DNA of 64,000 nucleotides, taken from assembly GCF_035920345.1 (NCBI RefSeq), contig NZ_CP109149.1:5332001-5396000 (forward strand), given 5' to 3'. The first letter of the stretch is position 1; every line of letters starts with the position of its first letter. Shown here piece after piece: positions 1,477-25,285 of this stretch. The position numbers were made by a program, and so were the translations under genes. The stretch comes from Nocardia vinacea (GTDB taxonomy: Bacteria; Actinomycetota; Actinomycetes; Mycobacteriales; Mycobacteriaceae). Below the pieces are notes generated by a model. The model saw nothing but the letters and a program-made list of their open reading frames with translations, was not told where the DNA came from and did no database searches.

Positions 1477-1549
1477 CCTCGCTGACGCTCGGCTCCGTCG
1501 TGCGCGGGGGCGCACTGTGCCCATGGTTCACTCGCAGGCGCTCGCTCAC
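1477..1549 (-). repeat. 73-bp junction repeat, copy A (fbiB/Nudix)
   Basis: On the minus strand this copy starts with GTGAGCGAGCG at the fbiB stop codon and ends with GAGCGTCAGCGAGG, seven bases before the Nudix GTG. It matches 65 of 73 bases of copy B at 25213-25285 and is more distantly related to copy C at 2921-2990. It fills practically the whole intergenic gap and supplies the downstream ribosome-binding site. Confidence 0.85.
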
Positions 1550-2913
1550 AGTTCAACCAGGCCGGGGCCCGGGCCGAAGACCGGACGTGGGGTGAGTTCT
1601 TCGAGGGGGTGGCCGATCGCAATGGCGCCCAGGGGGTTCCAGTCGTCGGCAAGGCCGAGAACCTCGCGGGTGGTCTCCGGCGCGAAGATGGTCGAGCCGA
1701 TCCAGCAGCTGCCGATGCCCTCGGTGGCCAGCGCGACGAGCAGCCCCTGTACCGCCGCGCCGACCGCGACGGTGAACATGGTGCGTTCGTTGCCGCGCCG
1801 CCGCTCATCCGGATAGTCATGTGCGCCATCGGGCACGCAGAACGGGATGATCACCTCGGGTGCGTCGTGCAGGATGCGGCCGCGGGCGATGCGACGTTCC
1901 ACCCGCTCCGGATCGAGACCGTCCGCGGTGAGATCGGCCCGCCACCGCTCGGCCATGGCCTCCAACAGTTGCGCGCGCAGACCAGGCTTGCGGACCCAGA
2001 CGAAGCGCACCGGACGGGTGTGATGCGGCGCGGGCGCGGTGAGCGCCTTCGCCACCGCGGCGCGGATGCGTTCGGGATCGACTGGAGTATCGGCGAATTG
2101 ACGGATCGAGCGACGCAGCAGCAACGCCTCGGAGCGCCCCTGCTCGATCGCCTCGGCCGTGCCGAGCCAGAACAGGTCATCGGTGCCGCCGCGCAGCAGA
2201 TCCGCGGCACAGGAGCCGTCATCGGTGACCGGCAGCCCGCGCACCACCGCGACCGGGACACCACCGAGCTTGCCCTTCACCAGATCTGCGGCGGCGGCCA
2301 ATTCGTCGGCCACCGCCACCTGGGTGACCTGCAGTTCATTACCCTGCCCGTCGACCGCGCCCGCATAGTCGTGCAGCACCCGCAATCCGGCGGCGCCGAT
2401 GGCGGTGTCGGTCTGTCCATTGCGCCAGGCCCGGCCCATGGTGTCGGTGACGACCACCGCGACGTCCACCCCGAGGCGCCCGGACAGCGCGGTGCGCAAC
2501 GCCTTCGCACTCCCATCCGGATCCGATGGCAGCAACACGAGCTCACCCTGCTCGACATTGGATCCGTCCACCCCGGAAGCGGCCTGCACGATGCCGAGCT
2601 TGTTCTCGGTGATCAGCGTGCGCCCCTTGCGCGCGAGTACGCGCACCGCCTCCTGCTCCACCAGCGCGCGGCGCGCGGTATCACGCTCCTCCGGATCCAG
2701 CGGCGCCTCGACGATGCGGCCCTCGACCTTGGCGACGATCTTGCTCGTGACGACCAGGATGTCGCCGTCGACCAACCAGGGCGCGGCGGCGGCGATATGT
2801 TCGGCGAGATCGTCGCCGGGCCGGAATTCCGGCAGCCCGGTGATCGGCAGGATCCGCAACTCCCCCGCTGCGTGATCGGCTGGTTCCGTCAATGGCTCTT
2901 GCGTACTGCTCAT
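1546..2913 (-). CDS. fbiB: bifunctional F420 gamma-glutamyl ligase / FMN reductase FbiB
   Basis: Two-domain F420 biosynthesis enzyme of 455 residues, about the mycobacterial FbiB size. The N-terminal CofE-like half (about 20-250) adds gamma-linked glutamates to F420-0 using GTP; recognisable stretches include VVTSKIVAKVEGR and VTDTMGRAWRNGQ. The C-terminal half (about 265-455) is a nitroreductase-fold FMN domain, starting near LLRRSIRQFAD, that reduces dehydro-F420-0. The ATG at 2913 overlaps the fbiA stop (ATGA), so the two are translationally coupled. This makes an actinobacterial F420 pathway very likely; fbiC and fbiD are not in the window. Confidence 0.95.
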   Translation of the reverse strand: MSSTQEPLTEPADHAAGELRILPITGLPEFRPGDDLAEHIAAAAPWLVDGDILVVTSKIVAKVEGRIVEAPLDPEERDTARRALVEQEAVRVLARKGRTLITENKLGIVQAASGVDGSNVEQGELVLLPSDPDGSAKALRTALSGRLGVDVAVVVTDTMGRAWRNGQTDTAIGAAGLRVLHDYAGAVDGQGNELQVTQVAVADELAAAADLVKGKLGGVPVAVVRGLPVTDDGSCAADLLRGGTDDLFWLGTAEAIEQGRSEALLLRRSIRQFADTPVDPERIRAAVAKALTAPAPHHTRPVRFVWVRKPGLRAQLLEAMAERWRADLTADGLDPERVERRIARGRILHDAPEVIIPFCVPDGAHDYPDERRRGNERTMFTVAVGAAVQGLLVALATEGIGSCWIGSTIFAPETTREVLGLADDWNPLGAIAIGHPLEELTPRPVFGPGPGLVEL

Positions 2914-3977
2914 GGCTTCACCTCGCCGACGCTCGGTGCCGCCATGACCGGCGGCGCTGTGTCTTTGGTTCGCTCGCTGCGCTCGCTCACGCCGGCCAGG
3001 TCGAGCGCCTCCCGCACCATTTCGGCGGTGGTCGGCGGATCGGTCATCAATAGCGGCACGCTGCGCACTTCGACACCGGGCACATCCGCGGTATCGGTGC
3101 TGTGGATCAGCCATCCGTCCAGGATGCCGGTGGCCGAGCGCGCACCGTAGTAGCGCCCGATCGCCTCGGCGGTGGTTTCCACGCCGATCACCGAGAGGCA
3201 TTCATCGGCCATGCCGCGCAGCGGCTTTCCGTCGATCACGCCCGAGATGCCGATCACCTTGGCCTCGGTGGTGCGCAGTGCGCCGCGAATGCCGGGCACC
3301 GCGAGGATGGCGCCGATGCTCACCACGGGGTTGGACGGGGCCAGTAGCACCGCGTCGGCCTCGGATATGATCTGTGTCACATTTGGCGCCGGTTTGGCGT
3401 CATCGGCCCCAATTGTGGCGAATCCGTGCGTCTCGATGTCCGCGCGGTAGCGAACCCACCACTCTTGGAAATGGATCGCGCGGCGTTCGCCAGGGTTGTC
3501 CGGGTCACTGACAACGACATGTGTTTCGCAACGATCGTCGGTAGCCGGGATGAGTTTTACGCCCGGCTGCCACCGGTTGCACAACGCCTCGGTGACCGCG
3601 GATAGCGGGTACCCGGCACGCAGCATTTCGGTCCGAACCAAGTGCGTCGCGATATCGCGATCCCCCAAACCGAACCAATCGGGTTGGGCATGATATTTGG
3701 CCAGTTCTTCCTTGGCGTGCCAGGTTTCGGCGACCCGGCCCCAACCGCGTTCGGTATCAATTCCGCCGCCGAGGGTGTACATGCAGGTATCGAGGTCGGG
3801 GCAGATCCGGAGGCCGTGCATCCAGACGTCGTCACCGACATTGACGATGGCGGAAACATCCGCATCGGGCAGTAGTTCCCGGACGCCCTGAAGGAAGCGC
3901 GCGCCGCCGACCCCGCCCACCAGGACGGCGATCTTGGGCCCACTTGCGGGTGCGGTGTCCGCTTGTTGTGGAGTCAC
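2910..3977 (-). CDS. fbiA: 2-phospho-L-lactate / phosphoenolpyruvyl transferase FbiA
   Basis: Transfers the phosphoenolpyruvyl or phospholactyl group to the deazaflavin Fo during coenzyme F420 synthesis. The glycine-rich N-terminus IAVLVGGVGGARFL and the later NVGDD and LAPSNPVVSIG segments are typical of CofD/FbiA. The GTG at 3977 is chosen: the conserved fold begins about 18 residues later, and a TAGGCT -10-like hexamer lies 8 nt upstream, suggesting little or no leader. Predicted 355 residues, slightly longer than the roughly 330 usual in mycobacteria. The extra C-terminal tail (about VSERSERTK onward) is encoded by a 70-bp junction repeat, so it is probably not functional sequence. Confidence 0.94.
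   Translation of the reverse strand: MTPQQADTAPASGPKIAVLVGGVGGARFLQGVRELLPDADVSAIVNVGDDVWMHGLRICPDLDTCMYTLGGGIDTERGWGRVAETWHAKEELAKYHAQPDWFGLGDRDIATHLVRTEMLRAGYPLSAVTEALCNRWQPGVKLIPATDDRCETHVVVSDPDNPGERRAIHFQEWWVRYRADIETHGFATIGADDAKPAPNVTQIISEADAVLLAPSNPVVSIGAILAVPGIRGALRTTEAKVIGISGVIDGKPLRGMADECLSVIGVETTAEAIGRYYGARSATGILDGWLIHSTDTADVPGVEVRSVPLLMTDPPTTAEMVREALDLAGVSERSERTKDTAPPVMAAPSVGEVKP
2921..2990 (-). repeat. junction repeat, copy C (inside 3' end of fbiA)
   Basis: A diverged 70-bp relative of the 73-bp repeat at 1477-1549 and 25213-25285. It shares the GTGAGCGAGCG start, a central CACAG, and the GAGCGTCGGCGAGG end. Here it has been read through and encodes the last 20-odd residues of FbiA; its terminal GCGAGG again precedes the next start codon (fbiB ATG) by 7 nt. 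Confidence 0.75.
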
Positions 3978-3985
3978 ATCGACAC

Positions 3986-24334: not shown

Positions 24335-25201
24335 GTGACCGCGATATCGCCCTCATCGACCGTAGCCGCGCGCCTCGTCGTGACCGGAGCGCGTGGGCAG
24401 TTGGGACGCGAACTGTTGCGCCGCGCACCCGACGCTCACGCCTTCGGTCGCGACGAATTGGACATCACGGACGCGGCCGCCGTGCGCGCCGCACTCGCAC
24501 CGGGTGATGTCGTGCTGAACTGCGCCGCCTACACCGCGGTCGACCGGGCCGAATCCGATTCCGAGGCCGCCTTCGCGGTCAATGCGACCGGACCTGCCGT
24601 ACTCGCTGCCGCCTGTGCGGAGGTGGATGCCCGATTGATCCATGTTTCGACCGACTACGTGTTCGGCGGAACCCACGACAAGCCGTACAACACCGACGAC
24701 CCGACCGAACCCGCCACCGTCTACGGCCGATCCAAATTGGCAGGCGAACAGGCCGTGCTGGCAACCGCGCCGCACGCACATGTGGTGCGCACCGCGTGGG
24801 TATACACCGGGCGCGGAAGCGATTTCGTCGCGACCATGCTGCGGCTGGAACGCGAACGCGACACCCTCGACGTGGTCGCCGACCAGCTCGGCTCCCCGAC
24901 CTACGCCGCCGATCTGGCCGCCGGACTCCTGGAATTGGCGGGTCGGCCGGATGCGCCGCGGGTGCTGCACGCCACCAACTCCGGCCAGGTCAGCTGGTTC
25001 GAATTCGCGCGGGCGATCTTCGCCGGAATCGGCGCGGATCCGACTCGGGTGCGCCCGTGTGACTCGACCGCATTTCCGAGACCCGCACGGCGCCCGACAT
25101 ATTCGGTGTTGTCCAACCGTTCCTGGGCCGATGCCGGACTGACTCCGCTGCGGCCGTGGGAGGTCGCACTCGGGGACGCGCTGTCGGGGTTGTCACAGTA
25201 G
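24335..25201 (+). CDS. rmlD: dTDP-4-dehydrorhamnose reductase RmlD
   Basis: Last step of dTDP-L-rhamnose synthesis, NAD(P)H-dependent. The SDR-type protein of about 288 residues has the glycine motif VTGARGQLG near its start, the STDYVFGG strand-loop, the catalytic YGRSK (Tyr-x3-Lys), and DQLGSPTY substrate contacts. The GTG at 24335 is chosen because CAGACT lies 7 nt upstream at leaderless spacing; a GTG at 24308 would add nine residues. A 73-bp repeat links it to wbbL. Rhamnose is essential for the arabinogalactan linker in mycolate-bearing bacteria. Confidence 0.93.
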   Translation: MTAISPSSTVAARLVVTGARGQLGRELLRRAPDAHAFGRDELDITDAAAVRAALAPGDVVLNCAAYTAVDRAESDSEAAFAVNATGPAVLAAACAEVDARLIHVSTDYVFGGTHDKPYNTDDPTEPATVYGRSKLAGEQAVLATAPHAHVVRTAWVYTGRGSDFVATMLRLERERDTLDVVADQLGSPTYAADLAAGLLELAGRPDAPRVLHATNSGQVSWFEFARAIFAGIGADPTRVRPCDSTAFPRPARRPTYSVLSNRSWADAGLTPLRPWEVALGDALSGLSQ

Positions 25202-25212
25202 GCTGCATGGCT

Positions 25213-25285
25213 GTGAACGAGCGTCAGCGAGTGAACCATCAGCACAGTGCGCCATTGCGCACGACGGAGCCGAGCGTCAGCGAGG
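25213..25285 (+). repeat. 73-bp junction repeat, copy B (rmlD/wbbL)
   Basis: This copy begins GTGAACGAGCG 12 nt after the rmlD stop and ends GAGCGTCAGCGAGG, eight bases before the wbbL GTG. It is the same length as copy A (1477-1549), with eight substitutions and no gaps. GCGAGGAG at its end is the apparent wbbL ribosome-binding site. Confidence 0.88.

Follow-up and report, generated by a model that had tools for sequence, protein, structure and literature searches.

A repeat inserted at gene starts in Nocardia vinacea, with a stem arm that tends to match the first bases of its host gene

Introduction

Why does one short repeat stand directly before three unrelated genes in the same stretch of Nocardia vinacea DNA? 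The stretch, called here the window, covers 64,000 nt (contig NZ_CP109149.1, positions 5,332,001 to 5,396,000). The repeat lies at the junctions fbiB/NUDIX gene, fbiA/fbiB and rmlD/glycosyltransferase gene, and a preliminary description made from the letters alone presented it as a dispersed 73-bp element that brings Shine-Dalgarno sequences to downstream genes. Beyond that account, the present analysis finds an insertion with DTGA (D = A, G or T) at both ends, a mini open reading frame (mini-ORF) of its own, relatives in other families of the order and an arm matched to the host. The whole is explained, with good confidence, by a mobile element of the type of the mycobacterial interspersed repetitive units (MIRUs), with DTGA ends, a mini-ORF and a host-fitted stem over the start codon.

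Extent and anatomy of the repeat

The three copies lie where the preliminary description had placed them (1477-1549 and 2921-2990 on the minus strand, 25213-25285 on the plus strand), and its count of 65 identities in 73 positions between the first and the third was reproduced by eye on the sequences. Alignment of these two copies by blastn gives 87.6% identity over 89 nt (E 6e-21). Two gaps, together 3 nt, shorten the copy at 2921-2990 relative to the other two. GCGAGG was likewise found close before the next start, 7 nt upstream of it in 3/3 copies. The 73-bp extent had to be revised: empty sites and tandem arrays show that the 3′ limit had been set 7 nt short of the unit. The corrected units begin with a left GTGA and extend up to a GTGA or ATGA on the right (Table 1). 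A scan of the window against Rfam at gathering cut-offs matched no family.

A sequence-only model of the family detects 150 places at E<=1 in the 10.36-Mb genome. Fourteen of them (E 1.4e-4 to 0.2) were removed by hand, and 136, in 105 clusters, were kept, one with an E value of 1.4e-3; the best reaches 2.9e-24 over 84 positions. As 150 of 17110 first-look candidates were scored, the copy count is a lower bound. The genome-wide search proposed in the preliminary description thus yields many further copies, mostly at gene starts.

Both ends were found in 113 copies and not in the other 23, so that the anatomy counts rest on the 113. A unit spans from one DTGA to a second DTGA at the downstream start, and measures 80 nt in 38 copies, 77 nt in 34, 71 nt in 8 and 68 nt in 8. 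Its length leaves a remainder of 2 on division by three in 94 copies, of 0 in 12 and of 1 in 7. In tandem arrays, which reach two to four copies in this genome, the right DTGA of one copy and the left DTGA of its successor are the same. A mini-ORF of 21 to 28 residues, starting in the left DTGA and stopping in the right one, is open in 93 copies; the interior is free of stops in frame 0 in 105, as against 51 and 63 in the other two frames. The claim of a translation-initiation module is sustained by the Shine-Dalgarno-like GAGG, which is supplied 7 nt before the right start in 96/113; in the rest it ends 1 nt before that start (10 copies) or 11 nt before it (1), or is absent (6). Among 87 solitary copies, the left and right D agree above chance (AA 29, GG 37, GA 19, AG 1, TA 1; Fisher p 4e-9).

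Insertion at gene starts

Comparison with element-free orthologous junctions, which the preliminary description had suggested, was made on loci sampled from 30 of the 77 genomes with a match. At the fbiB/NUDIX junction, 7 of 30 loci (N. vinacea itself included in the 30) are empty and read GA(A/G)CT GTGAG(C/T)GC, with the stop overlapping the start, and N. vinacea has the 80-nt unit precisely between CT and such a GTGAGCGC. The rest comprise three filled loci (its own and those of the relatives G009 and G069) and 20 with other spacers of 17-137 nt. At the rmlD/glycosyltransferase junction, 9 of 30 loci, counted in the same way, are element-free, with the 10-nt spacing and the GTGA start kept; G009 has two tandem copies there and N. 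vinacea one. When the solitary copies of N. vinacea were compared with the loci of G009 and G069, 53 comparisons were filled (29 and 24) and three showed empty sites, which are under-sampled here, the relatives' loci having been chosen mostly around the relatives' own copies. The tetranucleotide of the empty site is GTGA or ATGA at fbiB/NUDIX, at rmlD/glycosyltransferase and at the genomic copies 5331421, 8270033 and 9910448. Exact empty sites in relatives demonstrate, for the loci that have them, insertion at DTGA start sites. Together with the gene context across the family, they bear out the earlier view of a dispersed element linked to gene junctions.

Two explanations without mobility were weighed against these data. 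Chance similarity of GC-rich gene ends might be invoked for a motif that is itself GC-rich and simple in codon content; it is refuted by the E values and by the exact empty sites, and can practically be dismissed. Alternatively, a non-mobile gene-start module could have been assembled repeatedly by selection for coupling, or the repeat kept for its SERSER peptide. The conserved reading frame and Shine-Dalgarno spacing would fit such an origin, but it is refuted at the loci with exact empty sites, and the identity of up to 90% between elements at unrelated junctions and the head-to-tail arrays that differ in number between relatives make it very improbable.

The fbiA/fbiB junction is more complex, and several relatives read GTGAAGCCGTGA there. 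The proposal that the C-terminal tail of FbiA stems from the element withstood comparison: the CofD model stops at residue 372 of 402, and FbiA ends within a few codons at element-free junctions of relatives (e.g. L152, L158, L165 and L170).

Two side observations concern these loci. The copy at 5331421-5331500 of the genome is filled in N. vinacea and G069 and empty in G009 (L213), which is the nearer relative of N. vinacea at the fbiA-fbiB locus; precise loss or replacement may therefore occur. At one locus, N. vinacea and its congener G009 are 95% identical. At the rmlD/glycosyltransferase junction of more distant species (L456 and L457), one shortened and one different element-like stretch are seen, perhaps independent insertions.

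A stem over the downstream start

In an alignment of 127 copies, built with the sequence-only model, the consensus fold given by RNAalifold contains a stem whose 3′ strand consists of the element end and the downstream start codon. In a hand-written version of 11 pairs, 93.0% of cells pair, compared with 86.0% after shuffling and 19-51% when the strands are slid. Cells changed on both sides number 124, compared with 42.5 in shuffles (0/500). The start codon and an internal base vary together, C with GTG and T with ATG (56 CG, 54 UA, 2 UG and 3 other), and part of the GAGG sits in an inner helix. Over 172 copies, the non-Watson-Crick pairs are G·U rather than A·C in a ratio of 76:26 (shuffled ratio 1.40, 0/2000); this preference favours a single-stranded structure of the coding strand. 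Covariation thus supports a coding-strand stem in the 3′ half of the element that holds the downstream start and part of the GAGG.

An arm matched to each host gene

The 5′ strand of this stem is an arm of 12 nt located directly 5′ of a conserved GGAGCC. It pairs with the three terminal nucleotides of the element, with the DTGA, whose final A is mostly left out, and with the five host bases that follow. The arm tests use 97 of the 113 copies; the other 16 are followed by another copy in tandem or, in a few cases, lack an anchor that could be recognised. In these, Watson-Crick pairs with host positions +7, +8 and +9 number 78, 70 and 58, as against shuffle means of 48.6, 31.1 and 25.5 (0/2000). 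Pairs at +5 and +6 also exceed the shuffles (0 and 1 of 2000), pairing from +10 to +13 is at chance and +14 is slightly high (47/2000). A second set, 75 copies from named Nocardia records (18 of 93, tandem-like, were left out), gives 62, 49 and 40 pairs at the same three positions against 34.1, 21.3 and 18.6 (0/2000), with a weak excess at +10 (32 against 23.1; 11/2000). For Nocardia, the statistics thus show a locus-by-locus match of the 5′ strand of the stem with the opening bases of the host gene. The mean match is 3.57 of 5 over the 97 copies. By the criterion used, a central hairpin stem is absent in 48/97. The segment 5′ of the arm was considered as a direct copy of the host and rejected, the resemblance being weak (3.28 against 3.15 of 5 in 170 copies).

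Gene context and proposed coupling

Genes were called by a codon score for which 41 ORFs of the window served as the training set, and the calls are those of this analysis rather than annotation. In 99 copies no tandem copy follows. Here the right DTG shares the reading frame of the downstream gene 81 times; in the remaining cases that gene is unclear (9), in frame 2 (7), in frame 1 (1) or on the opposite strand (1). Among 97 copies with no other copy before them, the left TGA is the stop of the upstream gene in 36, and in 14 that stop lies at most 30 nt upstream. The upstream gene reads into the element in 5/97, an exception rather than the rule.

This architecture suggests how a mobile element of the MIRU type would work. 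Having no protein gene of its own, it would insert at DTGA start sites, often where a stop overlaps a start, and would leave DTGA at each end, as seen at the empty-site loci. Ribosomes finishing the upstream gene would reinitiate at the mini-ORF and, after it, at the downstream gene, an arrangement by which the operon would stay coupled after insertion. A ribosome on the mini-ORF would probably open the stem around the downstream start, which would then be used mainly after the mini-ORF had been read.

Several observations weigh against this picture. Many copies lie outside a coupled pair, because the upstream gene is on the opposite strand (9 of 97), unclear (22) or ends more than 30 nt upstream (11). 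The filled fbiA/fbiB site is not derivable from GTGAAGCCGTGA by one simple duplication, and copies with G on the left and A on the right are in unexplained surplus (19, against 1 with the opposite combination). Folding of single sequences is unremarkable in several of 7 copies (z -0.05 to -2.92), and the final A of DTGA is mostly unpaired (Watson-Crick in 65/172). Copies with and without an intact mini-ORF do not differ detectably in the match of the arm (3.59 of 5 with n 83, and 3.43 with n 14), and the same holds for the frame of the downstream gene (3.56 and 3.62); the match reaches 3.57, with 2.18 expected, where the downstream ORF has at most 40 codons (n 14). Hiding of the start codon is therefore unlikely to be the only cause of the match.

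How the arm comes to fit

The behaviour of the arm in orthologous and in independent copies bears on its origin. In 43 orthologous pairs, the arm differs by 0.081 per site, and the body by 0.121 on the left and 0.081 on the right; 10 of 53 comparisons were left out of this rate analysis by criteria of part and length, and a few rows of the underlying comparison with G009 and G069 are misaligned arms (e.g. 1531711 and 6135258). Between different insertions whose bodies are less than 5% apart, arms differ by 0.318 (48 pairs), compared with 0.070 in orthologues at the same body distance (n 19). The match is 3.71 of 5 in the copies nearest the consensus (n 24) and 3.58, 3.81 and 3.12 in the others (n 40, 16 and 17). 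As the match is present in copies of low divergence and lasts, the arm seems to have acquired its fit to each site during insertion or shortly afterwards.

Setting of the arm during insertion, either by inverted copying of the target (templated or fold-back synthesis) or by guide-target pairing, is a possibility of nearly even standing; the stem would then be a record of integration first and a translation structure second. It is consistent with an arm that changes like the body in orthologues yet differs strongly between insertions of near-identical body, with a match that is no lower near the consensus and equally high before short downstream ORFs, and with matches of 5, 4 and 3 of 5 (by eye, host bases unchanged) at the copies 8270033, 9910448 and 5331421, for which a relative has the empty site. 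Other data limit it. The arms of close copies (body distance 0-3) fit each other's hosts at 2.60-2.67, compared with about 2.2 at random and 3.57 for their own, and this poor cross-fit speaks against a simply inherited guide. Arms of close copies are somewhat alike (distance 4.17 against 5.3 of 12), which speaks against complete rewriting, although close pairs are partly a matter of chance, bodies being only 44 nt long. Some orthologues have changes on both sides of the stem, and in 14 copies of another family the host match does not extend past +5. Simple inheritance of a guide from parent copies was considered separately and left unsupported, the fit to each other's hosts being only slightly above random.

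The alternative is selection after insertion for a start-codon stem, with or without help from template-switch mutation between inverted arms, which has been described for RNA stems (PMC8794818). It is a serious candidate, somewhat less than evenly likely. Pair-keeping changes on both sides occur in orthologues, at D of 9812998 and at +9 of 5602227 in G009, and at +6 of 3253504 and +7 of 7775275 (to G·U) in G069. The greater tolerance of G·U than of A·C and the presence of the start-covering stem core in the 14 copies of another family also argue for selection. Against it stand a match that does not rise with divergence and that occurs also without an intact mini-ORF and before short downstream ORFs (groups of 14), and an arm that is not fast-evolving in place.

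It is tempting to propose that the element writes the complement of its target into itself on insertion, the old arm giving way to the inverse of the element end, of the DTGA and of the five host bases that follow. This proposal is speculative and rather unlikely. If true, the self-writing arm would give each adopted gene its own start-codon stem.

Distribution among relatives

Of 249 genomes sampled from the order, 69 have a match to model R1 at E<=1e-5; they represent 21 of the 68 genera sampled, Nocardia among them. The 20 listed genomes that belong to the same family but to other genera have no R1 match; the genomes without a match include 160 others. A pattern scan of named genomes gave at least 120 stretches, and the 80 among the matches listed are all from Nocardia. 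In family f15 (four genomes), 14 copies, the same that lack a host match beyond +5, share the DTGA ends, the GAGG and the start-covering stem core. Other families of the order also contain related elements, bounded by DTGA and partly in tandem (L427-L429 and L431-L450). Within the genus, G011, G020, G021 and G033 lack any match at E<=1e-6; other genomes reach 66 or more.

Relation to known mobile elements

MIRUs are repeats of 40-100 bp present at many loci, apparently mobile, with tandem copies variable in number, according to the available portions of PMC12548453 and PMC2734929. Their insertion at start codons couples an internal ORF to the next gene through a 4-nt overlap (PMC12548453, citing Supply 1997, in the part available). 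The Nocardia element behaves like these units. The likeness, which is one of architecture and insertion rather than of sequence, covers four points: a short repeat, mostly of 77-80 nt, dispersed over many loci (136 places kept); insertion at start codons with an ORF that ends in the right DTGA (93/113) and a downstream gene in frame 0 (81/99), from which coupling would follow; insertion at DTGA, found at the empty-site loci, with fbiA/fbiB less simple; and variable tandem copies, as at the rmlD junction of G009 and N. vinacea. Supply et al. are said to have reported in 1997 the insertion of MIRUs at DTGA. The host-fitted arm is a difference, being absent from the descriptions of MIRUs in the portions of PMC12548453 and PMC2734929 available here.

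Other systems offer partial parallels. In IS608, a guide in the element pairs with a target tetranucleotide, and this pairing may parallel the arm; unlike IS200/IS605 elements and the repetitive extragenic palindromes (REPs) and their paired form, REPINs, the Nocardia element lies mostly at start codons and is oriented with the gene. The start position and mostly co-directional orientation also speak against membership among REPs and bacterial interspersed mosaic elements (BIMEs), which are extragenic palindromes associated with a RAYT transposase. The bridge RNA of IS110 and the exon- and intron-binding sites (EBS/IBS) of group II introns are further cases in which a stretch within a mobile element pairs with the target, and there the guide is inherited by daughter copies, whereas the Nocardia arms differ between copies of near-identical body. 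Rickettsia palindromic elements are short repeats read in frame inside proteins, like the tail of FbiA, but such reading is exceptional in the Nocardia element (5/97 upstream genes). The ends of the element are not inverted repeats of each other (alignment A2, by eye), contrary to those of miniature inverted-repeat transposable elements (MITEs).

Among the matches listed, a literature search returned no report of such an element in Nocardia or Micromonospora. Within the accessible portions of the literature searched, no description of an arm complementary to each host gene was found. Collectively, these data show MIRU-like gene-start elements in Nocardia, with insertion demonstrated by exact empty sites and with model matches in other families of the order. 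Through the host-fitted arm, the mechanism by which these elements move becomes open to test, and the roughly one hundred start-codon stems of a single genome form a natural set for studies of translational coupling.

Features of the window and genomic positions

Of the gene names given in the preliminary description, FbiB, FbiA/CofD, the NUDIX domain and RmlD are supported; the protein starting at 25293, called WbbL there, is a family-2 glycosyltransferase.

Table 1. Coordinates of the three copies in the window and of their parts
Feature	Position	Strand	Basis
Copy 1, 80-nt unit between fbiB and NUDIX gene	1470-1549	-	sequence comparison; empty site at 7/30 loci
Copy 1, left GTGA containing fbiB stop	1546-1549	-	
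Copy 1, right GTGA = NUDIX start	1466-1469	-	
Copy 1, arm, largely complementary to 1461-1472 (element end, start codon, first host bases)	1497-1508	-	sequence
Copy 1, GAGG, Shine-Dalgarno-like, ending 7 nt before NUDIX start	1477-1480	-	sequence
Copy 2, 77-nt unit between fbiA and fbiB, in-frame C-terminal tail of FbiA	2914-2990	-	
fbiB start ATGA, after copy 2	2910-2913	-	
Copy 2, arm, largely complementary to element end and fbiB start	2941-2952	-	sequence
Copy 2, GAGG, Shine-Dalgarno-like, ending 7 nt before fbiB start	2921-2924	-	sequence
Copy 3, 80-nt unit between rmlD and family-2 glycosyltransferase gene (GTGA start 25293)	25213-25292	+	exact empty site at 9/30 loci
Copy 3, arm, largely complementary to 25290-25301	25254-25265	+	sequence
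Copy 3, GAGG, Shine-Dalgarno-like, ending 7 nt before start at 25293	25282-25285	+	sequence

Along the N. vinacea genome, the region from about 1.70 to 3.10 Mb holds 0 of the 136 kept copies, and a dense cluster lies at 5.29-5.36 Mb.

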